From: Halichondria panicea
Lineage: Eukaryota; Porifera; Demospongiae; Suberitida; Halichondriidae
Direction of reading: 5' to 3'
Length of the DNA: 64,000 nt
NCBI RefSeq assembly: GCF_963675165.1
Contig: NC_087391.1
Location: forward strand, 4,514,646-4,578,645
The position numbers and the translations under genes are program-made. Under the pieces are notes generated by a model. It was not told where the DNA came from and did no database searches. It saw only the letters and a list, made by a program, of their open reading frames with translations. This document shows positions 32,608-64,000 of this stretch, piece after piece. Each line of letters begins with the position of its first letter. Position 1 is the stretch's first letter.

Positions 32608-34065
32608 TTAGATTGATGATGAGCAGTTTACACTGTTTGCTGAGTTAACACTGCTGTGACTTGAATACATGTTTACTGTGTCGGTTGAGAGCGAGTTTTG
32701 TGCAGAGGTGGTTGGGAAACTTGTGTTTGTCTGAGATTGGGAGAGGGGGAAGCTGCTACATGACGGAGGGAAAAAGGTTGCCGGGTGACCAGGGAGCACT
32801 GGGGTTGTGGGCATGAAGAAAAACTGTTGCGTCTGTGGAGACAACGGAGTTAGACCTGCAAATTGCATTGTGTTCGAGACGATACTTGGACTGGGCAGAC
32901 TAGGCAGTTTGTATGAGTTGATGCCTAGACTGGATGCAGATTGAATGCTTGCTGCACTGGGGAGGTACGGTAGGGAAGATGGGATACTGACACAACTTCC
33001 ACTGGTGGTGGTGGTGCCGGGTTTCAATAGACTGTCCATTGAGAATCCAAATGATTGAGATTTGTTCATTCCAAACGGAGAGACGATAGGGGGGTAACCA
33101 AATGAGAATGGCATTGATGAAGCATTATGCAATGTCGAGGGGATGCCACCATTATGGAGACTGGCAGGGGGGAGAGTCGAGTGACCTGTGACAGAGGGAT
33201 GGTGGTGGCCATCAATACCTCCCATGGGGACATGATGGGGCATCATAGGGTGGCCATATGGACCCATGTCGAAAGCAGGCATACCGCTGAAGCCAGGGTG
33301 TCTTGGCATTGTGAGGGGAGGTACTCGCATGTTGTGGCCGTAGATATCGTTTCCTTGGTGTCTTCTCGAGATCGGTCGTCTTCTCAGTTTACCTGTGGTA
33401 CCTCCAATGAACATAATATCGTCACTAGATGGGTCCAATGTCCAGTAGTTGCCTTTGCCGGGGTCATCATAAGGACGGGGGACCTTCACAAAACACTTGT
33501 TCAACGAGAGATTGTGTCTGATTGAGTTTTGCCAGCCTTGCTTATTTTCTCTGTAGTAAGGAAAGTTCTTCATTATGTAGTCGTAGATTCCACTGAGAGT
33601 CAGTTTTCTCTCTGGGCTCGATCTGATGGCCATTACAATCAGTGCATTGTAAGAGAAAGGTGGCTTGGATTTCTTAGAGTCTGTGTCATCTTCTTTCTTT
33701 ACATCATTGGATTCACTCTCTGAATCTGCTTTGCTATCAGCTCCATTATAAGAGAGAGTTTCTTCGAGCTTTACTGTCGTCTTGGGAGTGTCCTGTGGAA
33801 GATCCTCTACTGAGGCAGCATCCCAGGAGGCATTGCTTGCAGGAGTGCATGCAGAGCCTATGTCGATATCAGAATTGAATTGCTGCTGGCACGAGGGATT
33901 GTACATGTCTTTCTGCGAAGTCTGTGAAGGGGGAATCGATAGAGACCTTGACAGCTCTGTTGCGGTAGCATCCACCCGAATCACAGGGCTGTTGCTATAG
34001 GTATGCATAGATCCAGGTAGTCGCTGGTGTAGATTCGGTAGTTGTTTCGCCAGGGTAACTGACAT
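32608..34065 (-). CDS. FOXG1: FoxG-like forkhead transcription factor, single exon
   Basis: A DNA-binding regulator of 485 aa on one open frame with no intron. The forkhead domain spans about residues 133-230: [20 protein letters not shown], helix 3 around [15 protein letters not shown], and wing 2 with [20 protein letters not shown]. The last block, and the order after the domain, are typical of FoxG (BF-1) rather than FoxA, FoxD or FoxL2. The N-terminal 130 residues are acidic and Ser-rich. The C-terminal part is rich in His, Met, Pro and Ser. FSMDSLL at 341-347 fits an eh1-type Groucho/TLE-binding motif (consensus FSIxxIL), suggesting repression; this is inference. The start is the first ATG of the frame, with no stop just upstream to prove it. 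The gene converges on RALGAPA. FoxG subfamily assignment rests on motif reading only. Confidence 0.9.
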
Positions 34066-42978: not shown

Positions 42979-45900
42979 ATGGCTGAAGGGATTAGCAAAG
43001 AAGTGAAGATCAAGGCAGCCTCAGAGGCCCTAACCAGCCAACTGGATAATCTCTTTGGAGTAATAGACCCCTTGTCTATATCTATGAAATTGATTTCCAA
43101 AAAGATCACTGATCGATCGATTCTTGAGAAGGTCAGATTGCAAAGTTCCACTAAGAGTGAGAAGGCGTGTGATGTTCTAACTGCTGTCTCTGATGCTGTG
43201 ATGGTTAACCCAAACTACTTTGACACTTTTTGCGATATCCTCGATAGTGAGCTAGTAACTAAAGATGTTGCAAGGATTCTGAAAGGTAGGTGTAAACAGT
43301 TTGATCAAGTTTCTGGCCTTATGTGATTCATTGACTAGCTCATAATACTGTGTTTCTTTAATATCCAGAGAATTATCAAGCGAACCTTCAGCAAATCCAC
43401 AGAGCTCAGCAAATTCCAAGTAAGTGCCCAATCTGGTGTTTGTCACACCAGCATTAAATTGTCTCTCTCTTTAGCATGCACATGTAATGTGCTACAAAAG
43501 TCATCCTTGAATGACCTTAAAAAATTGCTAGACGCTTTGAAAATATACAGCGGTGCCGATAAGAAGAAGATGGAACAAAAGGGTCTTACAGAATACGTGA
43601 CCTGCTTCATTCAAGCTGACTGCTCTTCCACTGACCATTTGGAGGAGCATCTCCTGGCTCTACACGAACAAGATAGCTTGATTACTGATGTCTCCGTATA
43701 CCATTGGGTGAAACAACTGGCCACACAAAAATTTACTGAAAGTGTGGCCATACCAACAAGTCCTCTTAAAGTTGCTCCTGTTACAAAATCATGTCTGTTT
43801 TCAAAGCCTGTTGTGTATCATGCCAGTATTTGCTCACTAGCAGTCAACAAAACTGATGCCGGGGAGTACCAAAAGTTCTTCAAAGACAAGCGGTTTGTTC
43901 CTGGGCACTCGCTTAAAGAAGTCTCCATCTCTCGGTCAAAACAGGATCGGTATCTCATAGCAACTCAAGACGACTCCACCTACTACATTGCCTTTCAGAG
44001 TGAGCCAAACATCACAGAATGGCCCAAGAGATTCACATCTTTTGAAAATGGTTGGTTATTTACCACAATGCTCAAAAAGATACATGTACTTATTACCTGT
44101 AGGAGTCAAAATGCAGTCAGAGAATTTTCCAATTGACTTCATCACAGAACTTCTCAACAATGACACAAAGAGAGTTGTTCTTACAGGTACCTTTGTTTTG
44201 TGCACGACTATAATGTTGTAATTCTAAAGTTAAGGTTTATTTTCATTTTCAGGTTTTTCTTTTGGTGGAATGCTGGCTTGTTCAATAGCCGTTCAAGTGT
44301 GGCAGCGAGGGTACATACCAGCTCAGCTGCTACAAGAGAACCTCGTATGTATCACATTTGCTCAGCCCCACCTCCCAGTGCCCCAACTAGCAGACTTAGC
44401 GAGAGACCGTCCTGAGATTGCTAACACAATCCATGCCATCTACTTTGAGGAGGACATAGTTCCTCGCCTTCTGAGGGTTTTTGACCTACCATGTAGCACT
44501 CTGATTGAAGAGCGAGTAACAAGAGAACCTGGCCTTCAGATGAAAGTTAGAGAACTACCCAAAGCTGTAAGTATGCTGTTCTGCTGTGTAATCAATGATT
44601 TAATTTCTATACATAATATATGTAGCAGGCTTTTCAAGACCTTTTAACACAGAAGCTTCTCTCAGACATAGGGCAGCTATTATTTGAAAGCTTGGAAGTA
44701 AGCAATGAATCGGATTGCAGCAAAAAGTATGATATGCCTTTTGTACTATTAGGTGTCCTCCTCATTTTCTGAACTTGTGGAATTCCTAAAGAGGATATTG
44801 GAAGGGTTGTCTCAAAACGCTGGACTAAGCCAATCGTTGACCTACTACCAGCTCTCGTACTCCACCGATCAGTCCTCCTGTCTTCAGTTCAGTGAGATGA
44901 CAAAAGATCAATCAGCCATTCAATCCTCACATCTCAAGATTGGTGAATTAGTTCATCTCACGCCTGAAGTCTTTAAAAAGGTTTGCTCTTTACTTATAGA
45001 GTTATACCGGTTAAGTACACACTTCTGTATACATGCAGCATTCCATGAATACGTACTGTGAGAAGCTCTTTCGAGGCTACTTGGACAAAACTCCTGGTTA
45101 CAGAATCCAACCCCAAGGAAAGGCCCCATCTTCTCTCAACATGAGACCGACTGTAAGTGGTGTCACTATTCACGAACACGGCTCAGAAGTTGCTTTGGTG
45201 GTGGAAGGTACCAACTTTTGGTTCTGCCATCGTCTGTCCATCAGAGGAGAGAGTGTTGTAACTCCAGCCTCTAAAATCTCTGGTACGTCAATGAAGCTCA
45301 ATTTTGACAAAGAAACCAAGACGACACTGAGTGCACTTTCTGACAACGAAGAAGTCAGTCTCAAAGTGTTCAATCACTTCATGAAGTCTCCAGTTGCTGT
45401 AAATGTGAAGGTCGTGAAGAAAGTAAGTTGGTTGTTGAAGTACTAGTGTGTATGGTGATGTTTTCATTAGGAATACCCGGTCAGCACAAGACAGCGACAG
45501 CTAGCTCGGCTCACTCCCTCTCAGCTGATCGAGGTGACCTACCTTAGTGCTCTGCTTGAGAAGCATCCCTACATCTCTGGCCCCCAACCTCAGTCACACA
45601 AGGTGACCGTTATCAAGGCATTTCTTGACAAGGTAGTGAATGTTGTGCCTTTGGAAAGTATTGGATACGCAATTGCATATGGAAACGATCATGTTGCGCT
45701 GCAATGTGTCAATGTGGTGGATGCTTTATTTGATGATTTACCTTCTTCCTATTTAATGGATGATGGTTTTGATAAAGCAACAGGCAGAGTTGGTAGCGGT
45801 ATGTCAGTTGAAATTGATAATGAACTGGTTAAGCAAGTTATTCGTCCGATTATTGACAGTATTGATATCAAGAATGATAACTATTCAGTTACTCATGACT

Positions 45901-48035
45901 TTAATAAAGAAGATAGGACACTCACAATTACAGTTTATTCTTCAGAGGAAACATTAACTCACCACACATACTCACTCGATGAGCTCGAAAAGAAATATAA
46001 GATAGCACCCAACATCGGTTTATCACAGCTAACTTATTTGAAAAATTTAGGTTCTCTACACAGTAAACTATTTCACAAGCAAAGATCAGGCATAGTCAGC
46101 AGTGTCATATGTGGATTAAATATAAGCTCACTATACGGTGCATCAAAAACGAAACTCAAGTCACCTATTGAAACGCTGCGACTAGGAAAGGAAAAACTTG
46201 CTTCCCCATCCTCAGACAAATTGGCATCTTCTGTGTCTTCTTCTGTTACTTCTGACATGAACTTAGAATGCCTGGATAACTCTCTCATGCTGAAAACTGT
46301 GAACGATATTCGTCAAGAAGAGCTAGCGATATGTACGTCACTGCTTGCGGGATTCATGGAACAACATCAAATTGACATTCCATTAATGAAATCAGAGAAA
46401 GATCACTCAAAAGCATTACAACTTTCTGCCAGAGCAAGTGTGGGTGTGTGGGCGTTATCAAGTCTTGATTTTGAGCATATTCAGCCGATTCTCAAGCAAT
46501 GCCGTGGTGAACAACTGCTTGTCAAGATTGAGAAGTATATCAAGGGTATTGTTGAAGCCAAAGCAATGTCACCTACTCCAGACGACACCAAATATGCTGC
46601 CAAACTTCAGTTCATTGTTCAAGGAGCAGAGAAAACAGTAACCTGCAACAGCCAATACATCAGCTACTCCCTCGAGCGACAACTTGCTGACACTTGTTGT
46701 GAAAGGAGAATCACTGAAGATATTCCCTTGGAAAAACTACTTTCACTGTGGGACCAACTTTTTGAGAAAAACATTCTCTCCCTTGTGGCCAAATCTCATC
46801 GCCCGCTGATTGCTCGCTGGCTGAAGTGGGCTTTGATGGTCCACAACCTTCGTGAGGAGCTGGCCAAGTACACAGCCGTGGGGGTGGTGGGACTCGTGAA
46901 CTCAGGGAAGTCACGACTCATCACCACACTCTTTGGAATACAGGTATTACATCAATCAGGTAGTAGCTAGATCTACATGCATACTAGTCACTCAGTCGGA
47001 CATTGACTTCTGTATTTTGTACTTCTAGTTTACCTAGATGAGTGCTTAGATTCCGAATGCTCAAAGCACATAGAGATTTCAGGTCATTTCAGTGACACTG
47101 ATGATTGTTTGCCTGTTTAGATTCCCTCTGGCACTACTGAGGAGAATAGGACGACCGTTCCATTTATGTACAACCTTGAAGACAGAGTGGATGGTCTGGA
47201 CGTGGTGGACTTCCCTGGGGTGGACGACAGAGACGAGAGCATCTCTGGACTGGCTGACCTCCTCCTCACTCTGGCACAGATCATCATCTTTGTGGTGGAC
47301 TACAGGTACATATGTATTACAGCTTTTGTAAATAATTTTATGTGCACACTATATTTAGTTTAAAAATCAGTAAGCAGTGAAATTAATAGTCCCATGCATG
47401 AATCATTATTATAATTGTCCACTGCAAATTGTCGTTGATCTTGTTTGTTAATTATGCAGGAAAGTCCACACTGAGTCCAGTAAGAAGTGGTTGGATAGAC
47501 TGCAGGTTGAGAAAGTTCCTGTGCTGGTGTGTCTTACCTTTGCAGACAAGCTCTATGCTGAGCACATGAGAGACGGCAAACACCTTACTGATGAAAGCAA
47601 GTACCCTGACAAGATATCTACTAAGCACAAGCTTCAAGCTGAGCTGGCTGTAAGTTATGACGATACTGCACACTTGTAATTCTTGAAATTATAATGCAAT
47701 GGTTGAACTGAATTTGCTCCTAGCCACTGGATATTACCATCTAATTCTTTACGACCATCTTTACGTGCAATAAACTCTGTTATTAGCGTGGCCTATAATT
47801 ATTGCAGAGAATCAAAGAGAAACTGGAACTCTCATCCTCTCATCAAATCGAGTTCTGCTCATTCAGTCAGGACAAGGATTCTATTCTGAATTGCGAGGAG
47901 GGTCGCCAAAGACTGAGGGACGTGGGAATCAGCACCCCCTCTGAGGTGGGGGATTGGCTGGTGGACACCTTTAGGAAGAGATTTGGACAAGACGATCTGG
48001 CAGACAGGCTCAGAGATTTTGTACATTCTAGTTAG
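42979..48035 (+). CDS. Array copy 1: death-fold-like / class-3 lipase-like / dynamin-type GTPase protein
   Basis: Twelve exons: 42979-43285, 43369-43419, 43475-44050, 44103-44186, 44253-44566, 44629-44697, 44753-44980, 45039-45422, 45471-46943, 47121-47305, 47460-47649, 47808-48035; all in phase, 1362 aa. Residues 1-102: all-helical domain with a CARD/death-fold-like leucine pattern (moderate confidence). About 215-545: lipase class 3 fold; TGFSFGG replaces the usual TGHSLGG (Ser342), DIVPRL gives Asp407 and HSMNTY gives His544, so a Ser-Asp-His triad is possible. About 580-670: beta-rich segment resembling IPT/TIG (RPTVSGVTI...VVEGTNFWF). 671-1140: long alpha-rich linker with a variable patch. 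1143-1362: GTPase with P-loop GLVNSGKS (1145-1152), Thr1167/1168 as G2, DFPG (1192-1195) and G4 at TFAD (1250-1253), where the usual N/TKxD lysine is missing. No signal peptide or obvious membrane segment. I know no named family with this order. Start chosen because MAEGISKE is shared by all copies. Confidence 0.88.
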
Positions 48036-48105
48036 TTTCTAGTTAGTTGCATCGAATTCATTAGTGTGAGTCTTTTTATGTTTTGGTTAGCTACAATTGT
48101 ATTCT

Positions 48106-48167
48106 TAGTCTCATGAATCAGCCGCACCTTTGGTGGACACCAAAGGTGCGGCTGATTCATGAGACTA
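48106..48167. repeat. Near-perfect palindrome between copies 1 and 2 (MITE with TAGTCTC ends)
   Basis: Two 29-bp arms (48107-48135 and 48138-48166) are exact inverse complements around a 2-bp centre. With one more T/A pair the element runs TAGTCTCATGAATCAGCC to GAGACTA. Flanks TTGTATTCT and TTGCATTCA match 7 of 9, like a decayed 8-9-bp target duplication. The ends resemble those of 62453-62564 (TAGTCTCGTGAGCAG). It could form a strong hairpin in RNA. Confidence 0.92.
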
Positions 48168-48265
48168 TTGCATTCAGCTTAGTTGTTTGATAAACAAAAT
48201 TAATGACCTTTACCTACAATTTTGTGATTCTGTGGGTGTGTCCATGTTGTATTGACTTTGTAAAC

Positions 48266-51200
48266 ATGGCTGAAGGGATAAGCAAGGAACTGAAGATCAA
48301 GGCAGCCTCAGAGGCACTAACCAGCCAACTGTTTGACCTCACAGGGGTAATTGACCCCTTAATGATGGCTCTCAATTTGATTTCCAAAAAGATTATTGAT
48401 CGATCGATTCTCGAGAGAGTTAGACTGTTGAGTTCCACGAAGAGTGAGAAAGCGTGCGATGTCCTAACTGCTGTCTCTGATGCTGTAATGATTAATCCAG
48501 ACTGCTTTGCCACTTTTTGCGATATCCTCGACAATGAGCCAGTAACTAAAGATATTGCAAGGATTCTGAAAGGTAAACACAACCGCTAAGTTCCTTCTGT
48601 GATCATGATATTAGAAACCTATAATGCAGCTAACCATGCGTCATCTTTTTTTAGAAAACTATGAACAGGAACTTCATACAGCTCAACAAAGTTTATGTGA
48701 GTTCTCATTGTGTCATTTGTTAGCTACCATTTATTAATCTTGACTCTCTCTCTCTCTCTTTAGCATGCACATGTACTGTCCTAAAAAAGTCATTCTTGAA
48801 CAAGCTGAAGAATTTGCTGTACGGTTTGAAAGGGTACAGCTATGCTGAGAAGAAAAAGACGGAACAACATGCTCTTACAGAATACGTGACCTGCTTCATT
48901 CAAGCTGGCTGCTCTTCCACTGACCATTTGGACAAGCATCTCTTGGCTCTACACGAACAAGATAACCTGATTACCGATGTTTCCTTATATCATTGGGCAA
49001 AGCAACTGGCCACAAAAAAATTTACTGAAATTGCCACTCTACCAATGAATCCGATTAAGATTTCTTCTGTTACAAAAGTACCTCTTTTCTCAAAGCCTGT
49101 TGTGTATCATGCTAGTATTTGCTCACTAGCAGTCAACAAGACTGATGCTGGGGAATACCAAAAGTTCTTCAAAGACAAGCGATTTGTTCCTGGTCACTCG
49201 TTTAAAGAAGTGTCTATCTCTCGATCAAAACAGGAGCGGTATCTCATAGCAACACAAGACGACTCTACCTACTACATTGCTTTTCAGAGTGAGCCAAACA
49301 TCACAGAATGGCCCAAGAGGTTCATGTCCTTTGAAAATGGTAAGTTTATATTTATATCGCAATGGTATAGATTACGTATCACTGTCCTCTTATAGGGATT
49401 AACATTCAAGCGGAAAGCTTTCCAATTGACTTCATCACAGAGCTTCTCAACAATGACACAAACCGAGTTGTTCTCACAGGTATTATTTTGTTTGTGTATA
49501 TAATATATGTGGGTTACTATTCATTTCAGGTTTTTCCTTTGGTGGGATGCTTGCTTGTTCGATAGCTGTTAAAGTGTGGCAGCGAGGGTACATACCAGCT
49601 CAGCTACTTCAAGAGAACCTCGTGTGTATCACATTTGCCCAGCCCCACCTCCCAGTGCCCCAACTAGCAGACCTGGCGAGAGACCGTCCTGAGATTGTTA
49701 ACACAATCCATGCCATCTACTTTGAAGAGGACATAGTTTCTCGCCTTCTGAGGGTTCTTGACCTACCATGTAGCACTCTGATTGAAGATCAAGAACCTGG
49801 CCTTCAAATGAAAGTTAGAGAACTGCCTAAATCTGTAAGTGCATGTATACTGTTTATTGAATGCACATGAGGATTTACATAATTAACAGGCTTTTCAAGA
49901 CCCTTTGACACAAAAGCTTCTCTCAGACATAGGACAGCTCTCGTTTGAAAGCTTGGAAGTAAGCAATGAATCTCACTGCAGCAAAAAGTATGATATGCCT
50001 ATTTTACTATTAGGTGCCCTCATTTTCTGAGTTCGTGGAATTCCTAAGGAAGATATTGGAAGGGTTGTCTCGAAACACTGGACTAAGCCAATCATTTACC
50101 TACTACCAGCTCTCCTACTCCACCGACCAGTCCTCTTGTCTTCAGTTCAGTGAGATGACAAAAGATCAATCAGCCATTCAATCTTCACATCTCAAAACTG
50201 ATGAATTGCTACGTCTCACACCAAAGGTCTTTAAAAAGGTGTGTTCTTAATTTACAGAGTTTGAGCCTATAATTATTTACCCTGTGCGTGTGCAGCGGGG
50301 GTAGAGTGAGATCAGTGTGTGTGTCGGTTTGTGTGTGGGCACAGACATGAGTTGTTTAGAGCAAACTAGACACTTTCATGGACTGCTTTAAATCTTCAAA
50401 GCTAACAAAAAACACTGTTTTTAATCGTTGTTTTATAGATTTTCGCGATTCACCCCATTATATTAATTACGGTACAAAATTATCGTATCCGTTTTGCCGC
50501 TGTGCAATGAAGCTGAACGCATGCATCTTGTTAAATCTGTACAGCATTCCATGGTAACTTATTGTGAGAAACTTTTCCGTGGCTACTTGGACAAAACTCC
50601 GGAGTACAGAATTCCCTCCGAAGGAAAGGCTCCAGTTTCTCTCAACATGAGACCGACTGTAAGTGGTGTCACTATTCACGAACACGGCTCAGAAGTTGCT
50701 TTGGTAGTGGAAGGTACCAACTTTTGGTTCTGCTATCGTTTGTCCATCAGAGGAGAGAGTATTGCAACTCCAGCTTCTAAAATCTCTGGTACGTCAATCA
50801 AGCTCAATTTTGACAAAGAAAGCAAGCCGACATTGAGTGCTCTTTCTGACAATGAAGAAGTCATTCTTAAAATGTTCAATCACTTCATGAAGTCTCCAGT
50901 TACTGTGAATGAAAAGGTCGTAAAAAAAGTATGTTGGTTGTTAAATTACTAGTGTGATGAGATTTAAAACCGTTTTCTGTTTTCAGGAATACCCAGTCAG
51001 CACAAGACAGCGACAGCTAGCACGGCTCACTCCCTCTCAGCTGATCGAGGTGACCTACCTTAGTGCTCTGCTTGAGAAGCATCCCTACACTGGCCCCCAA
51101 CCTCAGTCACACAAGGTGACCATTATCAAGGCATTTCTTGACAAGGTAGTGAATGTTGTGCCTTTGGAAAGCATGGGATATGCAATTGCACACGGAAATG

Positions 51201-53475
51201 ATCATGTCGCACTGCAATGTGTCAATGTGTTGGATGCTTTAGTTGATGATTTGCCTTCCTCCTATTTAATGGATGATGGTTTTGATAAAGCAACAAAGAG
51301 AGTTCGTAGCGGTGTTCCTGTTGAAATTGTTAGTAAACTGATTGAGCAAGTTATAGACAGAAGCCTTTTACAAAGTCGGTTGTTGTATGGCATACAATTT
51401 TCCTTGAACAAGGAAGAAAAGACACTGACGTATACAATTCATTTACCTGACAAGAAAATCTTAACTCGGACATACTCCTTCGATGAGCTCAAAGATAAGT
51501 ATAAGGTATCACCCAACATCGATTTACTACAGCTATCTGGTGTGAAAAACATAAATTGGCTACAACATAAATTATTTGACAAAGTTCATAAGTCAAGCAC
51601 AGTCAAAAGTGTCATATGTGGATTGAATATTAGCTCACTGTACGGTGTATCGAATGAACAACTCAAGTCACCCATTGAAACCCTCCATATTGGGAAGGAA
51701 AAGCTTGCTTCCACATCAGGATTTACCTCAGACAAATTAACATCCTCTGTCTCGTTAGTAAATTCTGCCATGAAGTTAGATTGTCTTGATAACTCTCTCA
51801 TGTTGAAAACTGTGAACGATATTCGTCACCAAGAGCTAGCGATATGTACTTCACTTCTTGCTGGATTCATGGAGCAACACGAAATTAACATTCCATTAAT
51901 GAAATCAGAGAAAGATCACTCGAAGGTTTTGGAACTTTCAGCTAGAGCAAGCGTGGGTGTGTGGGCATTATCAAGTCTTGACTTTGAGCATATTCAGCCG
52001 ATTCTCAAGCAATGCCGTGGTGAACAACTGCTCGTCAAGATCGAAGACTATATCAAGGGTATTATTGTTGAAGCCAAAGCAATGTCACCTTCTCCAGATG
52101 ATACCCAATATGCTGCCAAGCTTCAGTTCATCGTGCAAGGAGCAGAGAAAACAGTAACCTGCAACAGTCAATACATCAGCTACTCCCTCGAGCGACAACT
52201 TGCCGACATTTGTAGTGAAAGGAAAATCACTGAAGAAATACCCTTGGAAAAATTAGTTTTACAGTGGGAACAACTTTTTGAGAAGAACATTCTCTCCCTC
52301 GTGGCCAAATCTCATCGCCCGCTGATTGCTCGCTGGCTGAAGTGGGCTCTGATTGTCCACAACCTTCGTGAGGAGCTGGCCAAGTACACAGCCGTGGGGG
52401 TGGTGGGACTCGTAAACTCAGGGAAGTCACGACTCATCACCACACTCTTTGGGATACAGGTAGGTTACCGTGCACCTATTTTTATGTTCCTCATCAGTTG
52501 AGTCAGACATGCATGTGTGCAAAGTTTATGTCCTTTAAAAGTTGTACTGATGATCGTTTCTCTATTTAGATTCCCTCTGGCACTACTGAGGATAATAGGA
52601 CGACTGTTCCATTCATGTATAACCTTGAGGATAAAGTGGATGGTCTGGACGTAGTGGACTTCCCTGGGGTGGACGACAGAGACGAGAGCATCTCTGGACT
52701 GGCTGACCTCCTCCTCACTCTGGCACAGATCATTATCTTTGTGGTGGACTACAGGTACAGTCTTTCAGATGTATTATCCTTTGTATATAATTATGTGCTA
52801 GTTTTGAATCCAAAGCAGTAGATCAAAGCCAGGAAAGGTTATTGTTAATTACTGCGAATTATTCTTGTTATATCTGCAGGAAAGTCCACACTGAGTCCAG
52901 TAAGAAGTGGTTGGATAGACTGCAGGTTGAGAAAGTGCCTGTGCTGGTGTGTCTCACCTTTGCAGACAAGCTCTATGCTGAGCAAATGAAAGATGGTGAA
53001 CACCTTACTGATGAAAGCAAGTACCCTGACAAGATATCCACTAAGCACAAGCTTCAAGCTGAGCTGGCTGTGAGTTATGCACGATACTGCACACTTGTGG
53101 TTCTCTTAAATCATTAAAATCTACCATAGTCCGTTCCTATTGTTGTGATCAGCTAGTTCCCAAGACGCTTTATGTGCATTAGAAATTGAAATTGAATGCC
53201 ATATTTTTTAGCATAATTATTTTAACTGGGGGCTGTAATTATTGCAGAGAATCAAAGAGAAGCTGGAACTCCCATCCTCTCACCAAATTGAGTTCTGCTC
53301 ATTCAGTCAGGACAAAGATTCTATTCTGAATTGCAAGGAAGGTCGCCAGAGACTGAGGGATGTGGGAATCAGCACCCCCTCTGAGGTGGGCGATTGGCTA
53401 GTGGACACTTTCAAGAAGAGGTTTGGACAAGACGATCTGGCAGACAGGCTCAAAGATTTTGTACATTCTAGTTAG
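48266..53475 (+). CDS. Array copy 2: death-fold-like / lipase-like / GTPase protein
   Basis: Same 12-exon plan: 48266-48572, 48655-48696, 48764-49339, 49396-49479, 49530-49834, 49890-49958, 50014-50238, 50545-50928, 50987-52459, 52570-52754, 52880-53069, 53248-53475; 1355 aa, no stop or frame break. The GFSFGG nucleophile motif, DIVSRLL (Pro to Ser against copy 1) and HSMVTY keep the possible triad. The P-loop GLVNSGKS, DFPGVDD and TFAD are identical to copy 1. Small in-frame differences are 3 residues shorter in exon 2, 3 in exon 5 and 1 in exon 7. Intron 7 is longer (about 300 bp). The middle of exon 9 (51290-51620) is the most diverged segment of the array, while the lipase and GTPase exons are nearly identical to the other copies. 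Confidence 0.88.
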
Positions 53476-53837
53476 TACAGAGAGCAACTTTAACATTAAC
53501 TGTGTGTGTGTGTGTTGTTATAATTAACATTATTGTACATTCAATGTATTGTGTGGTAATAAGTTTATGGTCTGTTTGAATATGCTCTATAAATTTAATA
53601 CTGAGTCTGAGTATCCTATGATGTACTTTACCTACCTAGATAATTATATATTTTGACAGTAGGTTGTGTAGGCCTATATACTGGTAGAAGAAAATTACAC
53701 GAAGAATACATACAAAATACATGTATGTTTCATTCCACACAAATTATTGATATATTTTATATGGTGGGAAATGCACATTATAAAAACTGTGACTATATCT
53801 AACAATCGAGGTGAACATGATATATAGTTTATGTTCG
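53476..53837. other. Spacer between array copy 2 and calcineurin B fragment 1
   Basis: Holds the 3' UTRs of two convergent units: a TG run, AATAAGTTTATGG and AT-rich DNA. It is nearly identical to 61117-61466, so it belongs to the duplicated unit. Confidence 0.6.
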
Positions 53838-54679
53838 TCAGTCGCTGCCTTGCTTGAAATCCAGTACCATTTTAGACGGGCCATCCATCGTGCCCACAAC
53901 CTGCAGAGGACACAAAGGCAACAGTGAGCAATGCTAGAGTAATACACTAGGCACCAACCAAATATCTCTCCGCATATAAACGGCATCACAAAATAATAAA
54001 TGCAGCGAGAAACATTTCTATAAACCACATTTCCCCTTTGAATTTGATAAGGGAACCATACAAACATCTAGGAAGACTCAAAGACCCACATGTACATGTA
54101 CATGTATTCACTGAGTAACTCACATCACAGAATTCCTCGTATGAAATCTTGCCATCGCCATCTTTGTCGGAGTAGAGGATGGTCTTATCGACTATTTCTT
54201 GGAGTTGCTTCTCTGTTAAGTTGTTTCCTACCATCGTTTTTAGCACTTAGAACAGTTCACCGTTGCTGATGAACCCGTCCTGGTCAATGTCGTAGATACG
54301 GAAAGCAACTATAAAAAGAGAAGCAGAAACCACTGACACAATAGTTACTAAAATGAGGCTCAAAATACTAACTCAATATACAACTGAACCCTAGCTGGTA
54401 TAGGAACTGAACCCTAGCTGGTATAGGAACTGAACCTAACGTAGGTTTTCCACGTGGTCTAAAGGTACATGTATACGGAACAATCCACAGACCTTGCTGG
54501 GTCCCCTAACAGTGGTAATAAAGAGTGAATTGTCTTATAAATTATTTAGCTAAGGTGCAATGGATTCTATAACATGCGTGTTTACACCACCTAACATAGA
54601 GAAAAAGTGATGGGCTTACACTTGAGCTTCTTGTCCCTGTCTCCCTCCACACTGAACTGTGAGACACCCTCTATGAACT
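53838..54679 (-). pseudogene. PPP3R1: Calcineurin B 3'-half copy 1, with premature TAA
   Basis: Three exons (minus): 54679-54620 ([20 protein letters not shown]), 54308-54124 and 53900-53838. They encode the region from the end of EF-hand 2 through EF-hands 3 ([12 protein letters not shown]) and 4 ([12 protein letters not shown]) to a calcineurin B tail ending FKQGSD. Codon CAA (Gln) after GELF, present in the second copy, is TAA here (minus strand, about 54250-54248). Exons for EF-hands 1 and most of 2 are missing. A short conserved stretch (STDQIDQL, about 55262-55285 minus) could be a remnant of an N-terminal exon, now separated by an insertion. Splice sites are otherwise intact. A duplicated gene fragment, probably not functional as calcineurin B. 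Confidence 0.82.
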
Positions 54680-55076
54680 CTGCACAAGGAGGGAAACACA
54701 CAAATACTGAAACTGTATCCTGCTATACATGTGTACATACATGCACTGCTGGCTTTTACATGAAGTATTCGTAAGACTCCATAAGGTTTTTCCCCTATTA
54801 TTAGGGTATTGTGATCACTCATGAATATTCATGAGTTTAATTCTGTCAGCTTTTTCTCTTTTGCAGGTTCAAAGAAGTCTGCTGTACTTATATTGTATGA
54901 TTATTAACTCTATTGCTATTGTTTTGTGTAAGAATGCCATGATTATGAAGATGCATGAATGAGAAAAGTGGGCATCAAAACCGCAAGTATATAGACTATT
55001 TTTTGCGTCAATTTATAAGAGCAGTAAGTACTTTCAGCAAGCTTTATTGGTATCTATATGTAGCTAAGTACCTTCC

Positions 55077-55240
55077 AGAGGGCCAGACGAAGAGATATTC
55101 GTTGTAAAACTTCATACGGGCGAGTAAAAGCTAAGAGTAGACAGTAAGTATCTAAAAACACGTTTGATATTTCGATAAACAGGAGGCTACCTTCAACCAG
55201 ATTGACTTTTTTCAAAATTTCTCTTCGTCTGGCCCTGCCC
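55077..55240. repeat. TIR element inserted in calcineurin B fragment 1 region
   Basis: AGGGCCAGACGAAGAGAT at the left is inverted as ATTTCTCTTCGTCTGGCCCT at the right. It is part of about 450 bp (54800-55250) absent from the matching place in the other unit, where AAGGTTTCCTCTATTGTCAA leads directly to CTCAACTGGTCGATTTGG (about 62356-62398). Confidence 0.75.
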
Positions 55241-55539
55241 CTACCTTTCTTTAATCTCAACTGGTCGATTTGGTCGGTACTAACCACCTCTACACAAAAT
55301 ACCTGAGTAACTCTAATAGGCCTAGTTTACCACATTATTAGGATTGAAAATAGCGACAGTTCCTATAATTTATTGCCTATGTGCAATTACTTTACTCACC
55401 TCTGTACTCATTACTATAGCATGTACATCATCATTCCGCTCAGACACCTGGCTCAACTGCACTGTGTGTGTGTGTGCGTGTTGACATTATTTGTCAAATG
55501 ATTTGACAAGTTTTTTAGTTTCAGTTTTGTGCACACACT

Positions 55540-55749
55540 AATCCTTGTGGTGTATGTATCAGTCAGTGGTTGTATTAAACACACAATAGAATAGAGCAAG
55601 TGGCAAGTACAATATTAAATCAGACCCCCACGTACCTCCTCCCACCATCACTGCACGGACACAGAACGAACGTCTTCATTATTTTGTTATGCTAACGACT
55701 TTCCTGAAGAGCTTAAGGATAACATAAGAGAGGTGTGAGAGGAACTTGA
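55540..55749 (-). pseudogene. TRMT5 intron-1/exon-1 fragment, copy 1
   Basis: 55668-55749 matches TRMT5 exon 1 (about 40114-40202) through TTATGCTAACGACT, ACATAAGAGAGGTGTGAGAG and GAACTTG, with a 12-bp deletion. Upstream, 55575-55635 (ACACAATAGAATAGAGCAAG, AATATTAAATCAGACCCCCA) matches TRMT5 intron 1 on both sides of its MITE. Homology stops abruptly after GAACTTGAAG. It cannot encode TRMT5. Confidence 0.8.
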
Positions 55750-55860
55750 AGCATCACCATAGGCGCTAGACGTAGACAATAGCTATGTGATCATGATCAC
55801 ACACCCATTTACACATACACACCTCTAGCTGAGTTATTACACTTTCTGGATTGCAGAGAA

Positions 55861-55919
55861 ACAAAGGTGTGGCTCGTTTTTGGGGGCGTGCCTGGTTTCT
55901 GCCTGTGGCAAACAACACA
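55861..55919 (+). promoter_or_regulatory. Conserved upstream block of array copy 3
   Basis: ACAAAGGTGTGGCTCGTTTT, GGGGGCGTGCCTGG just before the start codon parallels the block before copy 1 and the GGGGGCGTGG before copy 4. A GC-box-like core is possible. Since the unit is duplicated, conservation alone is weak evidence. Confidence 0.4.
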
Positions 55920-58900
55920 ATGGCTGAAGGAATAAGTAAAGAAGTGAAGATCAAGGCAGCCTCCAAGGCTCTAACTAGACAACTGGTTAATCTCATTGGG
56001 GTAATGGACCCCTTCATGATGGCTGCCAACTTGTTCTCTGAAGAGATTATTGATCAATCAATTCTCGAGAAGGTCAGATTGCCAGGCACTAAAAGTGAGA
56101 AGGCTTTTGATGTCTTCACTGCTGTCTCTGGTGCTGTAAGAATTAACCCAGACTCCTTTACTACTTTTTGCAATATTCTCGACAATGAGCCAGTAACTAA
56201 AGATATTGCGAAGAATCTGAAAGGTAGGAAAGAGTTTGATCGATCGCTTATTATCATTTAGGCTTCTTGCTACTCATAATATATTATAGCTGATAATACT
56301 GTGTCTCTCTTTAATATTCAGATAGCTATCAAGCGAACATTCTGGAAATCCACAGAGCTCAACAAATTCCTAGTAAGTTCCGAATAAGGTATCACTTTAA
56401 TGTCATCTCTCTCTTTAGCTTGCACATGTACTCTGTTACAAAAGTCATTCTTGGAAAAACTGAAAAAACTGCTCGATGGTTTGAAATTTTACAGCGGTGC
56501 CGATACGAAGAAGATGGAACAAAAGGGCCTCACAGAATACGTGACCTGCTTCATTCAAGCTGGCTGCTCTTCCACTGACCATTTGGACGAGCATCTCTTG
56601 GCTCTACACGAACAAGATAACCTGATTACTGATATTACCGTATATCATTGGGCAAAGCAACTGGCCTCAGAAAAATTCACTGAAATCGTTGCCATACCAA
56701 CAAGTCCAATTAAAGTTGCTCCTGTTACAAAATCACGTCTTTTTTCAAAGCCTGTTGTGTATCATGCCAGTATTTGCTCACTAGCAGTCAACAAGACTGA
56801 TGCTGGAGAGTACTAAAAGTTTTTCAAAGACAAGCGGTTTGTTCCTGGCCACTCGTTTAAAGAAATCTCCATCTCTTGGTCAAAACAGGATCGGTATCTC
56901 ATAGCAACACAAGATGACTCTACCTACTACATTGCCTTTCAGAGTGAACCTAACCTCACAGAATGGCCCAAGAGATTTGCATCCTTTGAACATGGTAAAT
57001 ATATTTACAACATTGCCAATAGTTACTTAATGTTTTACCTATAGGAATCAGCATTCAAGCTGATAACTTTCCTATTGACTTCATCACAGAGCTTCTCAAC
57101 AATGACACAAAAAGAGTTGTTCTTACAGGTACTACTAAACTACAATGTTGTGATTTTAAAGGTTCCTTTCAGGTTTTTCCTTTGGTGGGATGCTGGCTTG
57201 TTCAATAGCCGTTCAAGTGTGGCAGCGAGGGTACATACCAGCTCAGCTGCTTCAAGAAAACCTCGTGTGTATCACATTTGCCCAGCCACACCTCCCAGTG
57301 CCCCAACTAGCAGACCTGGCAAGAGACCGTCCTGAGATTACAAACACAATCCATGCCATCCACTTTGAAAAGGACATAGTTCCTCGCCTTCTGAAGGTTC
57401 TTGATCTACCATGTAGCACTTTGATTGAAGAGCGAGTAATAAAAGAACCTGGCCTTCAGATGAAAGTTAAAGAACTTCCCAAACCTGTAAGTCTGCTTTG
57501 TGTGTGTGTGTGTGTGTGTGTCAGCAACAATTTTTACTGCACAGGCTTTTCAAGACTTGTTGACGCAGAAGCTTCTTTCAGATGTAGGGCAACTCTCCTT
57601 TGAAAATGTCGAAGTGAGTTGTGAATATCATTGCAGCAAATATAATGAATATACTGTGCCGATAGGTACAATCTTCTTTCTCTGAACTTATGGAATTTCT
57701 AAGAAAGCTATTGGAACGGTTGTCTCAAAACGCTGGACTAAGCCAATCATTGACCTACTACCAGCTCTCCTACTCCACCGACCAGTCCTCCTGTCTTCAG
57801 TTCAGTGAGATGACAAAAGATCAATCAGCCATTCAATCCTCACATCTCAAAACTGAAGAATTGCTTCGTCTTACACCAGACGTCTTTAGAAAGGTTTGTT
57901 CATTGTGTACACTGTCCGTTTAAAATAATCCTGTACAGCATTCAATGGAGACCTATTGTGAGAAGCTTTTCCGTGGTTACTTGGATAAATCTCCTGAGTA
58001 CAGAGTTCTACCCACAGGAAAGGCTCCAGCTTCTCTCAACATGAGACCGACTGTAAGTGGTGTCACTATTCACGAACACGGCTCAGAAGTTGCTTTGGTG
58101 GTGGAAGGTACTAATTTTTGGTTCTGCCATCATCTGTCTATCAGCGGAGTGAGTATTGCAACTCCAGCTTCTCAAATTTCTGGCTCATCAATCAAACTCA
58201 ATTTTGACAAGGAAATCAAACCGACCTTGAGTGCTCTTTCTGACAATGAAGAAGTCAGTCTCAAAGTGTTCAATCACTTTATGAAGTCTCCAGTTACTGT
58301 AAATGTGAAGATCATTAAAAAAGTAAGTTGGTTATTGAAGCACTGTCAGTATAGAGTTTAATAATTTTCTTTAGGAATACCCGGTCAGCACAAGACAGCG
58401 ACAGCTAGCACGGCTCACTCCCTCTCAGCTGATCGAGGTGACCTACCTCAGTGCTCTGCTTGAGAAGCATCCCTACATCTCTGGCCCTCAACCTCAGTCA
58501 CACAAGGTGACCGTTATCAAGGATTTTCTCGACAAGGTAGTGAATGTTGTGCCTTTGGAAAGTGTGGGATATGCAATGGCACATGGAAATGACCATGTTG
58601 CGCTGCAATGTTTGAATGTGGTGGATGCCTTATTTGATGATTTGCCTTCTTCCTATTTAATGAATGATGGTTTTATTAAAGCAGCAAGAAGAGTTGGTAG
58701 CGGTATGTCAGTTGAAATTTATAATGAACTGATTGATCCGATTGTTGAAGGATATGATTCACAGAATGATAAATATTATGTTGAATATGCCTATAATAAA
58801 GAAGATAGGACACTTACAATTACAGCTGATTTTTCAGAGGAAATATTAACTCACACATACTCACTCGATGAGCTCGAAAAGAAATATAAGATAGTACCCA

Positions 58901-61116
58901 ACATAGGTTTATCACAGCTAACTTATTTGAAAAATTTAGGTTCTCTACAAAGTAAACTATTTGTAAAAATGCGAAGGTCAGGCATAGTCAGCAGTGTCAT
59001 ATGTGGATTAAATATTAGTTCACTGTACGGTGCATCAAAAAAGAAACTGAAGTCACCCATTGAAACGCTGCGACTAGGAAAGGAAAAACTTGCTTCCCCA
59101 TCCTCAGACAAATTGGCATCTTCTGTCTCTTCTTCTGTTACAGTAACTTCTGCCATGAACTTAGAATGTTTTGATAACTCTCTTATGCTGAAAACTGTGA
59201 ATGATATTCGTCAAGAAGAGCTAGCGATATGTACTTCACTGCTTGCTGGATTTATGGAACAACATGAAATTGACATTCCATTGATGAAATCAGAGAAAGA
59301 TCACTCGAAAGCATTGGAACTTTCAGCTAGAGCAAGTGTGGGTGTGTGGGCGTTATCAAGTCTTGATTTTGAGCATATTCAGCCGATTCTCAAGCAATGT
59401 CGTGGTGAACAGCTGCTCGTCAAGATCGAGGACTATATCAAAGGTATTGTTGAAGCCAAAGCAATGTCCCCTTCTCCAAACGACACCCAATATGCTGCCA
59501 AGCTTCAGTTCATTGTTCAAGGAGCAGAGAAAACAGTAACCTGCAACAGCCAGTACATCAGCTACTCCCTCGAACGACAACTTGCTGATATTTGTAGGGA
59601 AAGAAAAATCACTGAAGAAATTCCCTTGGAAAAATTACTTTCACTGTGGGAACAATTTTTCAAGAAGAACATTCTCTCCCTCGTGGCCAAATCTCATCGC
59701 CCGCTGATTGCTCGCTGGCTGAAGTGGGCTCTGATGGTTCACAACCTTCGTGAGGAGCTGGCCAAGTACACAGCCGTGGGGGTGGTAGGACTCGTAAACT
59801 CAGGGAAGTCACGACTCATCACCACACTCTTTGGAATACAGGTATGTTAACACTTTTAATTATGTGCTATGACTGTGGTTTTACTTCCATAGCTTTACTT
59901 GTCGTCGTTAGTCAGCCATAATTGTTTACATGTGTATTTTTCTGTTTCTATTTCGCTGATGATTGTTTCGATATACCTGTTTAGATTCCCTCTGGCACTA
60001 CTGAGGAGAATCGGACGACTGTTCCATTCATGTACAACCTTGAGGACAAGGTGGATGGTCTGGATGTGGTGGACTTCCCTGGGGTGGACGACAGAGACGA
60101 GAGCATCTCTGGACTGGCTGATCTCCTCCTCACTCTGGCACAGATCATCATCTTTGTGGTGGACTACAGGTACGTACCTACCGTAGTCTATAAAGGCGCC
60201 ACAAAAATTTTTGGGCGCACAAATAGAGCAGAAAAAAGTTTGGATGGCACTTCATTTAGAGTGACGGCCGAATTGAATTGGCAGATACAGCTTTAATTTT
60301 AGAGCCTAGACTGTTTAGTTAGCGCTAAAATTAGAGTGGCGCCTTTATTAGACTTTTTACAGTATAGTCATTTATAAACTTGTGCACACGCTTTAATTTG
60401 TGGTTTAAATCCATAGATCAAAGTAATTATTTGTCCCCAATGACCTTAGTGATTGTAGAGTGTATTTTACAGCAGTTGATTTTGGTCTGTCGTATTTATC
60501 TATATAATCATATCTACAGGAAAGTCCACACTGAGTCCAGTAAGAAGTGGTTGGATAGACTGCAGGTTGAGAAAGTGCCTGTGTTGGTGTGTCTCACCTT
60601 TGCAGATAAGCTCTATGCTGAACACATGAAAGATGGCGAATATCTTACTGATGAAAGCAAGTACCCTGACAAGATATCCACTAAGCACAAGCTTCAAGCA
60701 GAGCTGGCTGTGAGTTATGCAGCATACTGCACACTTGTGGTTCTCTTAAACTACCATAATCCGTTCCTATTGTTGTGATCAGCTTGTTCCCACTGGAAGA
60801 CGCCTTATGTGCATTAGAAATTGAAATTGAATGCCATATTTTTAGCATATTTGTTTTCGTTTGTAACTGTGACCTGTAATTACTGCAGAGAATCAAAGAG
60901 AAACTGGAACTCCCATCCTCTCACCAAATTGAGTTCTGCTCGTTCAGTCAGGACAAAGATTCTATTCTGAATTGCAAGGAGGGTCGCCAGAGACTGAGGG
61001 ACGTAGGAATCAGCACCCCCTCTGAGGTGGGCGATTGGCTGGTGGACACTTTCAAGAAGAGGTTTGGACAAGACGATCTGGCAGACAGGCTCAGAGATTT
61101 TGTACATTCTAGTTAG
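55920..61116 (+). pseudogene. Array copy 3: lipase-like/GTPase gene with one premature stop
   Basis: All 12 exons and their splice sites are intact: 55920-56223, 56322-56372, 56419-56994, 57045-57128, 57173-57486, 57545-57613, 57666-57893, 57939-58322, 58375-59841, 59985-60169, 60520-60709, 60889-61116. Joined they give 1360 codons in phase, but codon 251 (56814-56816) is TAA where copies 1 and 2 have CAA (Gln) in GEYQKFF. Nearby SRSKQ is SWSKQ. The stop falls before the nucleophile Ser, so a truncated product would hold only the N-terminal domain and part of the hydrolase. Everything downstream is as well kept as in the intact copies, so the stop is recent, polymorphic, a sequencing error or read through. 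Intron 10 carries a MITE not present in copies 1 and 2. Confidence 0.85.
60179..60364. repeat. MITE in intron 10 of array copy 3
   Basis: TACCGTAGTCTATAAAGGCG CCAC at the left is mirrored by GTGGCGCCTTTATTAGAC, TTTTTACAGTA at the right. The inside has GTGACGGCCGAATTGAATTG. Intron 10 of copies 1 and 2 lacks it, so it inserted after duplication. Confidence 0.85.
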
Positions 61117-61466
61117 TACAGAGAGCAACTTTAACATTAACTGTGTGTGTGCATGTTTTGTTATTGTACATTCAATGTATTGTGTGGTAATAAGTTTATA
61201 GGTAAACAAAATTAATGTACTCTATAAATTACTGAGTTAGTGAGTATCCTATGATGTACTTTACCTATACCTAGATAATTATATATTTAGACAGTATAGG
61301 TTGTGTAGGTCTATACTGGTAGAAGAAAATTGCATAAAGTTACATGAAGAAATACATACAAAATACATGTATGTTTCATATATTTTATATGGTGGGAAAT
61401 GCACATTATAAAAACTGTGACTAATATCTAACAATCGAGGTGAACGTGAAATATAGTTTATGTTCG
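61117..61466. other. Spacer between array copy 3 and calcineurin B fragment 2
   Basis: Convergent 3' UTR region, nearly identical to 53476-53837 with small indels (shorter TG run). Nothing else is seen. Confidence 0.6.
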
Positions 61467-62272
61467 TCAGTCGCTGCCTTGCTTGAAATCCAGTACCATT
61501 TTAGACGGGACATCCATCGTGCCCACAATCTGCAGAGGATACAAAGGCAACAGTGAGCAATGCTAGAAAATTATATTTAATATACTATATATATATAGGC
61601 ACCAACCAAAAATATAATATCTCTCCGCATATAAACGGCATCACAAAATAATAGTACATGCACGAGAAACATTTCTATAAACCATACAAACATCTACATT
61701 GATTAACAGGAAGACTCAAAGACCTACATGTATAGAATGTATTCACTGAGTAACTCACATCACAGAATTCCTCGTATGAAATTTTACCATCGCCGTCTTT
61801 GTCGGAGTAGAGGATGGTCTTATCAACTATTTCTTGGAGTTGCTTCTCTGTTAAGTTGTTTCCTACCATCGTCTTTAGCACTTGGAACAGTTCACCATTG
61901 CTGATGAACCCGTCCTGGTCAATGTCGTAGATACGGAAAGCAACTGTAAGAGAGAAGCAGAAACCTCTGACACAATAGTTACTAAAATGAGGCTCAAAAT
62001 ACTAACTCAATATACAACTGAACCCTAGCTGGTATAGGAACCGAACCTAACGTAGGTTTTCCACGTGGCCTAAAGGTACATGTATATAGAATAAGTCCCC
62101 TAACAGTGGTAATAAAGTGTGAATTGTCTTATAATTATTTAACTAAGGTGCAATAGATTCTCTAACATGCGTGTTTACACCACCTAACACAGAGTAAGAG
62201 TGATGGACTTACACTTGAGCTTCTTGTCCCTGTCTCCCTCCACACTGAACTGTGAGACACCCTCTATGAACT
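61467..62272 (-). CDS. PPP3R1: Calcineurin B 3'-half copy 2 (partial, no stop in visible exons)
   Basis: Regulatory Ca2+-binding subunit of the phosphatase calcineurin. Exons (minus) 62272-62213, 61943-61759 and 61529-61467 join in phase and read [21 protein letters not shown]-hand 3 [14 protein letters not shown] followed by Q (intact here), [22 protein letters not shown]-hand 4 [15 protein letters not shown], then [20 protein letters not shown]. Exons for EF-hands 1-2 are not found upstream. STDQIDQL (about 62380-62405 minus) and a possible exon reading LSQVSERNNDVHA (about 62640-62705) are the only conserved leads. So it is either a 5'-truncated duplicate or a gene with an altered N-terminus. 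The first is more likely because the same truncation occurs in copy 1. Confidence 0.75.
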
Positions 62273-62452
62273 CTGCACAAGGAGGGAAATACTGAAACTG
62301 ATGTGTACATACATGCACTGCTGGCTTTTACATGAAGTATTCACAAGACTCTATAAGGTTTCCTCTATTGTCAAGGAACTCAACTGGTCGATTTGGTCGG
62401 TACTAACCACCTCTAGACAAAATACATGAGCAACTCTTAGGCCTAGTTTACC

Positions 62453-62564
62453 ACTAGTCTCGTGAGCAGACTTGACACACACTTGAAAAAAAACATTACA
62501 ATACTTGTACAGTGTTTCACCCAGGCTCCAAGTTCCCTCTAGGACAAGTCTGCTCGCGAGACTA
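62453..62564. mobile_element. Short TIR transposon with target-site duplication and empty site in window
   Basis: Ends TAGTCTCGTGAGCAGACTTG and its inverse CAAGTCTGCTCGCGAGACTA (one mismatch). Flanked on both sides by GTTTACCAC (9 bp). The matching place in unit A (about 55325-55335) reads CCTAGTTTACCACATTATTA without the element, i.e. an empty site. At about 112 bp it is non-autonomous. TSD length suits a Mutator-like (9 bp) or hAT-like (8 bp) transposase, which is not in the window. Confidence 0.88.
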
Positions 62565-62789
62565 GTTTACCACATACATGTATTCCAGGATTGAAAATAG
62601 CGACAGTTCCTATAATTTAATGCCTATATGCAAATACTGTACTCACCTCTGTACTCATTGCTATAGCATGTACATCATTATTCCGCTCAGACACCTGGCT
62701 CAACTGTGTGTGTGTGTGTGTGTGCGGCGTGGTGACATTTGACAGTTTCAGTTTTGTGTACACACTAATCCTTGTGGTGTCTGTATCAG

Positions 62790-62992
62790 TCAGTGGTTGT
62801 ATTAACACACAATAGAATAGAGCAAGTGGCAAGTACAATATTAAATCAGACCCCCACCTCCCACCGGCACCATCACCGGCACCGGACACAGAACAAACCT
62901 TTCCCTCTAACGTCATCATTTGTTATGCTAACGACTTTCTTGAAGAGAGGGTACTTAAGGATCACATAAGAGAGGTGTGAGAGGAACTTGGA
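62790..62992 (-). pseudogene. TRMT5 intron-1/exon-1 fragment, copy 2
   Basis: 62891-62992 matches TRMT5 exon 1 from its donor (ACAAACCTTTCC on the plus strand, i.e. the minus-strand GTTTGT) through TTATGCTAACGACT and GAGAGGGTACTTAAGGATCA to GAGGAACTTGGAG. Then homology ends. Intron-1 sequence lies upstream. It is longer and better kept than the first fragment. No TRMT5 function is possible. Confidence 0.82.
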
Positions 62993-63111
62993 GCTCCACC
63001 ATAGGCGCTAGGCATGCACAGTCAGTACTGGTGAAGAAACTTGACAAAAGGGGTCCAGATAGTCTCTCGGGCCATACTGGTAGATCTACTGCACATGCGC
63101 AAAGCGCAGTG

Positions 63112-63452
63112 TACCGTATAGCGGGTATATTTCGAGGGTATAAATGTTCGCGGTTTTCGCGGATTGAGCCTAAACCGCGAAAATTTATACCCACAAAAAT
63201 TTATATCTTTATTGAATAGTAGGCGTGTTCAGTATTATTGACCACACCTATCGACAATAAGAGGTACATGTACCTCACCGTTATAGGCTAGGCCTGGATT
63301 CGAGGCTAACGGTGTGGTGGTACAGCTGCATGTTGATGTGCGCATGCGCCAAAAGGCTGGGAACTCAGACCACAAAAATAAAATCCGCGAAATCCTTTGT
63401 AATGGTCCATCCGCGAAAATTTATACCCTCGAAATATACCCGCTATACGGTA
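63112..63452. repeat. 341-bp MITE directly upstream of array copy 4
   Basis: Starts TACCGTATAGCGGGTATATT TCGAGGG and ends CCCTCGAAATATACCCGCTA TACGGTA: nearly perfect inverted ends. An internal hairpin pairs GGTATAAATGTTCGCGGTTT with AAACCGCGAAAATTTATACC. It ends 34 bp before the start codon of copy 4 and so occupies its proximal promoter. Related elements are at 12155-12345 and 39416-39592. Confidence 0.9.
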
Positions 63453-63486
63453 TGTTGGGGGCGTGGTGTTTTGCTGGAGTGAAGCA

Positions 63487-64000
63487 ATGGCTGAAGGAAT
63501 AAGCAAAGAAGTAAAGATCAAGGCAGCCTCGAAGGCTCTAACCAACCAACTGGTTAATCTCATTGGAGTAATTGATCCATTAATGATGGCAGCTAATTTG
63601 ATTTCTAAAGAGATCATTGATCGATCAATTCTTGAGAGAGTGATGTTGCCAATTTCCACTAAGAACGAGAAGGCGTGTGATGTCCTAACTGCTGTCTCTG
63701 ATGCTGTGATGATTAACCCAGACTATTTTGCCACTTTTTGCGATATCCTCGACAATGAGCCAGTAACTAAAGATATTGCAAAGATTCTGAAAGGTGGGCG
63801 CAAGCATTGTTTACATTAATTGTACGATTTCATAAAATGGCTTGTTTTGAGCTTGCGTTTGTTTATTCTTATATATCAGAAAAATATCAGGAAGAGCTTC
63901 GTGCAACTCAGAAAATTTCGTGTGAGTTGCCATTTTGTGTCTTTGACACTAATATAATGTTGACTTGACCCTCTCTTTAGCTTGCACATGTACTGTGCTA
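63487..64000 (+). CDS. Array copy 4 (partial, runs off window)
   Basis: Exon 1 63487-63793 encodes the N-terminal death-fold-like domain (MAEGISKEVKIKAASK..., 102 codons plus 1 nt). Exon 2 is 63880-63921. Exon 3 begins at 63981 with the TCTC-type start shared by all copies. No stop so far. The upstream region differs from the other copies by the MITE at 63112-63452. Confidence 0.87.

Follow-up and report, generated by a model that had tools for sequence, protein, structure and literature searches.

Predicted CARD, EDS1/PAD4-like lipase and GTPase domains in one protein family of the sponge Halichondria panicea

Comparison with described systems

In plants, the class-3 lipase-like proteins EDS1 and PAD4 are immune hubs. 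Their class-3-lipase-like α/β-hydrolase domain, shared with SAG101, is held in common with the products of a tandem gene array (top 14 matches in the PDB) that we describe here from the demosponge Halichondria panicea, where such a domain is joined to a CARD of the subfamily used by the sponge's own NLRs. The array lies in a stretch of 64,000 nucleotides (assembly GCF_963675165.1, contig NC_087391.1, positions 4,514,646 to 4,578,645, forward strand), hereafter the window. The EP domain that follows the lipase-like domain in EDS1, PAD4 and SAG101 found no match in the array proteins in Pfam scans, and the array proteins further differ from these three in carrying a CARD before the lipase and a beta domain and a GTPase after it.

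Animal NLRs (CARD-NACHT-LRR) resemble the array proteins in that they use the same CARD subfamily in this genome and combine it with a nucleotide-binding switch domain in one chain, whereas the array proteins have a C-terminal P-loop GTPase in place of a central NACHT, lack LRRs and add a lipase; neither a NACHT nor an LRR was found in the Pfam scan of the protein of the first gene copy (copy 1). The CARD-bearing GBPs of fish, such as zebrafish Gbp4 (PMC4932187), also join a CARD to a GTPase, but their CARD is C-terminal rather than N-terminal, they have no lipase, and a GBP-type GTPase was not matched in the array proteins. Fold matches of the domain encoded by exon 1 include the CARD of a zebrafish GBP-NLRP1-like protein (4irl).

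In bacteria, death-like domains of the bDLD3 conflict systems are fused to α/β-hydrolases predicted to act on membrane lipids, and NTPase or GTPase switches occur in related death-like domain systems (PMC8195603). The bDLD3 systems thus resemble the array proteins in pairing a death-like adaptor domain with an α/β-hydrolase, a likeness of architecture with no sequence match shown; their parts are encoded separately in an operon, whereas those of the array proteins form one chain. These bacterial fusions and switches provide a precedent for the reading proposed below, and extensive shuffling of death-like domains is known in sponges (PMC8195603).

The modules are known, and the combination of a CARD, an EDS1-like lipase and a GTPase was found neither in the open-access literature searched nor in domain libraries, limited evidence which suggests that it is undescribed. 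The literature searched yielded no animal equivalent of the class-3-lipase-like immune hubs that is linked to adaptor domains of the NLR type, and the family offers a concrete candidate for immunity or cell death directed at lipids at the base of the animals.

Domains, paralogs and selection

Pfam Lipase_3 matched the copy 1 protein with 29.5 bits (cut-off 22) and all 8 aligned paralogs (best 1.7e-9), bearing out an initial annotation of this DNA that had named a class-3 lipase-type hydrolase. When the lipase profile was compared with the PDB, the top 14 matches were PAD4, EDS1 and SAG101 chains (best E 2.6e-4), with a matched stretch of only 80-105 residues. A control class-3 lipase of the same genome (L001) matched triacylglycerol lipases of fungi but no member of the EDS1 family, which indicates that PDB bias alone does not account for this ranking. 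By its profile, the domain is nearest to EDS1/PAD4/SAG101 among solved structures, a ranking that covers the PDB only, in which few other lipases of plants and animals are represented; the annotation had drawn this comparison as an analogy, and within this set it proves to be the closest relationship in sequence. Searched against prokaryotic genomes, the lipase alignment gave nothing beyond a match of 43 residues in two Chitinophaga filiformis contigs, which we read as a generic nucleophile-elbow match.

Ser342, Asp407 and His544 constitute the predicted catalytic triad, with the histidine assigned by position and conservation alone. Their spacing of 65 and 137 residues is close to that of the triad in Arabidopsis EDS1 (S123, D187 and H317).

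The AlphaFold2 (AF2) model of exon 1 (mean predicted local distance difference test score, pLDDT, 86) has seven helices, the first of which is split. It superimposes on the APAF-1 CARD with VIA-align Z-scores of 12.7-13.1 (root-mean-square deviation 1.6-1.8 Å over 88-89 residues). Over 30 CARD entries score Z 8 or more against it. Foldseek, a check that the annotation had proposed for residues 1-102 of copy 1, likewise gave CARD matches, at a probability of 1.00 and E 0.23. At the sequence level the signal is fainter: the CARDs of ICEBERG, APAF-1 and caspase-9 are among the first PDB matches of the subfamily profile, with weak E-values, and the Pfam CARD family PF00619 is matched weakly by 3 of 13 subfamily members (best E 0.088). 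Judged by its modelled fold, the N-terminal domain is a CARD of the death-fold superfamily, which sharpens the adaptor-type, death-fold-like helical domain of the annotation. This CARD was detected in the five array copies and in the paralog C15B, and a candidate CARD exon lies 5.7 kb upstream of C15A.

A single-sequence search of the genome with the exon 1 CARD gave 37 further matches with E of 1 or below, many of which are marginal. In those examined, the CARD belongs to L036 (NACHT-LRR), L031 (Dynamin_N), L032 (helicase-like) and other proteins, and two of the CARD matches (L052, L053) sit directly upstream of NACHT-LRR open reading frames on the same strand. At least 102 NACHT matches occur in the genome, and by these sequence matches the CARD subfamily of the array genes is also used by its NACHT-LRR receptors. 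At another locus, L034 (G000:C2:7824500-7831000), CARD exons of two types alternate in a tandem repeat. L032 (325-3855, - strand) and L037 (664-2013, - strand) have the same N-terminal CARD and apparently a common second region, which may be TRADD-N-like; L032 runs on into a UvrD-like helicase.

At the C terminus, MMR_HSR1 matched the whole copy 1 protein at 1.3e-9 and all seven members tested (best 1.2e-11), ahead of Dynamin_N (1.3e-6), and the best PDB matches of the GTPase profile were EngA/Der and eIF5B. The G1 (GxxxxGK[ST]) and G3 (DxxG) motifs fit, and G4 is a degenerate TxAD in which Thr and Asp are invariant. On these profile matches and motifs, the domain is a P-loop GTPase, probably a TRAFAC member of the Era/EngA kind. 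A C-terminal large GTPase had been annotated as dynamin-type; the GTPase stands, and the dynamin assignment is not supported. Nor did a relation to GBP, IRG or GVIN GTPases find support: URGCP_GTPase reached 17.3 bits against a cut-off of 55, in 3 of 7 members, and no GBP or IRG match was listed in the Pfam scan of the seven.

For the other segments, matches were not obtained. The helical region before the lipase had no PDB match in a nine-paralog alignment, and the beta-rich domain of exon 8, annotated as possibly IPT/TIG-like, had no Pfam or PDB sequence match, so that this label is not supported. Exon 9 contains a linker of about 490 residues, and its AF2 model with 12 paralogs (pLDDT 46) is too low in confidence for use. 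PADLOC gave no match.

Five copies stand head to tail in the array: the window contains three in full and the start of a fourth, and a fifth lies outside it. The initial annotation had counted "at least four" genes of one 12-exon plan. All introns of copy 1 are GT-AG, and its 12 joined exons form a single open frame of 1362 residues. The five copies agree in the position and phase of all 11 introns and are 80-97% identical in nucleotide sequence per exon. Copies 1, 2, 4 and 5 are intact; copy 4 encodes 1358 residues and runs past the window end to window-coordinate 68954. The in-frame TAA of copy 3 may reflect a pseudogene, an allele or an assembly error.

Exon-level searches of the assembly (131 Mb; window at G000:C15) revealed eight divergent paralogs beyond the array, spread over four contigs: C15 and C4 carry three each, those on C15 near 4.34-4.36 Mb, and C8 and C9 carry one each. 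The resulting family size of 13 is a lower bound, as the genome search scores only the best candidates, and the spliced models of the paralogs, built with a home-made aligner that took copy 1 as its guide, are approximate where conservation is weak. Lipase and GTPase exons co-occur in 12 of the 13 members, the exception being C15C, of which only the 3' part was found. The paralogs are 40-57% identical to copy 1 in the conserved C-terminal part, and introns 3, 4, 7, 8, 9 and 10 keep their position and phase in most of them. Intron positions and phases shared at this divergence indicate that the fusion is ancient within the genome and forms one transcription unit, rather than arising from a reading error. 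On the evidence of these gene models, the lipase-GTPase fusion is old and fixed in this genome; with a mean synonymous divergence (dS) of 0.26 among the array copies as well, the description of the cluster as young is not supported.

All parts of the array proteins are under purifying selection. The ratio of nonsynonymous to synonymous divergence (dN/dS) is 0.27 overall and, by part, 0.06 for the GTPase, 0.12 for the helical region before it, 0.17 for the lipase core, 0.26 for the CARD and 0.50 for the variable linker. The dS of the GTPase, 0.14, is below the array mean, which may be due to gene conversion.

Proposed action and rival explanations

The domain content suggests an animal immune or cell-death protein. 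An innate-immune or cell-death role was part of the initial annotation, and it gains weight as the same CARD subfamily heads NACHT-LRR receptors of this genome; the appeal to dynamin, GBP or IRG relatives made with it is not supported. Our tentative preference, a little short of an even chance, is for a cytosolic family of the order CARD, helical region, EDS1/PAD4-like class-3 lipase, beta domain, helical region and GTPase, which would be switched by GTP, recruited through the CARD and act through the lipase fold. We infer GTP-controlled assembly, CARD-CARD recruitment and a lipase-fold output as follows. On binding or hydrolysing GTP at its C terminus, the protein would change between two states, one closed and one assembled, and its N-terminal CARD would then engage similar CARDs, such as those of activated NLRs. 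The output would come from the lipase-fold module, which would be either an EDS1-like scaffold or an acyl or phospholipid hydrolase with membranes or lipid mediators as its targets, and the likely outcome upon infection would be local membrane damage, lipid signalling or cell death. It is doubtful that the family is an animal counterpart of the plant EDS1 hub, that is, a lipase-fold protein, evolved or retained in sponges, that links NLRs via the common CARD to a GTPase-gated output of lipid hydrolysis or small-molecule sensing.

Several observations weigh against the GTP-switched, CARD-recruited lipase. The best E-value to EDS1/PAD4 is modest, and the lipase-like domains of plant EDS1 are non-catalytic scaffolds (PMC6377607), so that a triad is no proof of catalysis. 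In the C8 paralog, Thr replaces the nucleophile Ser. The G4 motif TxAD is without the usual Lys of [NT]KxD, and the P-loop of the C4c paralog (G000:C4:5872500-5889500) reads VNSRKS, with a Gly-to-Arg change at a normally invariant position. No CARD was found in or near the C4, C8 and C9 members, and positive selection, looked for among the array copies by dN/dS, was not seen, with no part above 1.

The loss of the nucleophile in C8, where the rest of the lipase domain is retained, would fit an adaptor between NLRs and other partners, no enzyme itself, in which the lipase-type domain is a non-catalytic scaffold for lipid binding or dimerisation, as in its nearest PDB relatives EDS1, PAD4 and SAG101 (PMC6377607). 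The putative Ser, Asp and His are, however, conserved in nearly all paralogs at ~30-40% identity, which a pure scaffold would not need, and we regard this explanation as rather unlikely. The members on C4, C8 and C9 without a detectable CARD, which nevertheless keep lipase and GTPase, are consistent instead with a protein of membrane trafficking or lipid metabolism outside immunity, a GTPase-controlled intracellular lipase that gained its CARD by lineage-specific domain shuffling; that no diversifying selection was found in the array also fits such a protein. Against it stand the purifying selection on the CARD of the array and the membership of this CARD in the subfamily used by NLRs of this genome, and we consider it improbable. 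Very improbable indeed is a chance reading of separate neighbouring genes, or an array that is largely pseudogenic. The stop in copy 3 and the 3' remnant C15C would fit the latter, but four of the five copies are intact at an overall dN/dS of 0.27, and old paralogs have the same domain order and intron phases; the conservation of these phases led us to reject separate adjacent genes.

Features of the window

Table 1. Features of the array genes, in window coordinates
Feature	Position	Strand	Basis
Copy 1 gene, 12 exons, 1362 aa	42979..48035	+	spliced reading frame, exon-by-exon paralogs
Copy 1 exons 1-6	42979-43285, 43369-43419, 43475-44050, 44103-44186, 44253-44566, 44629-44697	+	
Copy 1 exons 7-12 (stop included)	44753-44980, 45039-45422, 45471-46943, 47121-47305, 47460-47649, 47808-48035	+	
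Exon 1 of copy 1, CARD (modelled), residues 1-102	42979..43285	+	AF2, VIA-align, Foldseek
Helical region between CARD and lipase, ~residues 120-214	43475..43758	+	alignment A6, nine paralogs
Class-3 lipase / EDS1-like α/β-hydrolase domain, ~residues 215-544, exons 3-8	43759..45041	+	Pfam Lipase_3, PDB profile
Predicted nucleophile Ser342 in GFSFGG (nucleophile elbow)	44258..44260	+	invariant in lipase alignment A1
Predicted catalytic Asp407, EED-IVP motif	44453..44455	+	invariant in A1; aligned to D-VPRLL motif of PAD4
Predicted catalytic His544, KH-x4-Y motif, first codon of exon 8	45039..45041	+	invariant in seven paralogs (alignment A4)
Exon 8 of copy 1, beta-rich domain	45039..45422	+	conserved alignment A4
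Exon 9: fast-evolving linker ~673-960, conserved helical region 961-1135, GTPase start	45471..46943	+	12-member alignment A5
GTPase domain of copy 1, residues ~1141-1362	46890..48035	+	MMR_HSR1
GTPase motifs G1 GLVNSGKS; G3 DFPG; G4-like TFAD	46890-46913; 47208-47219; 47536-47547	+	
Copy 2 gene, 12 exons, 1355 aa, intact	48266..53475	+	spliced alignment
Copy 3 gene, 12 exons, in-frame TAA in exon 3 after TDAGEY	55920..61116	+	spliced alignment
Copy 4 gene, first exons in window	63487..64000	+	genome extension, spliced alignment
Copy 5 gene, intact	79904-85043, beyond window		genome extension, spliced alignment

Between array copies, the window also contains two fragments of EF-hand (calcineurin-B-like) genes (61678-62001 and 54102-54314, both - strand), which are 96% identical to each other and were evidently duplicated together with the array. 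Upstream, the array is preceded by genes for a forkhead transcription factor (32611-34089, - strand) and a TRM5/TYW2-type tRNA methyltransferase (36945-37751, - strand).

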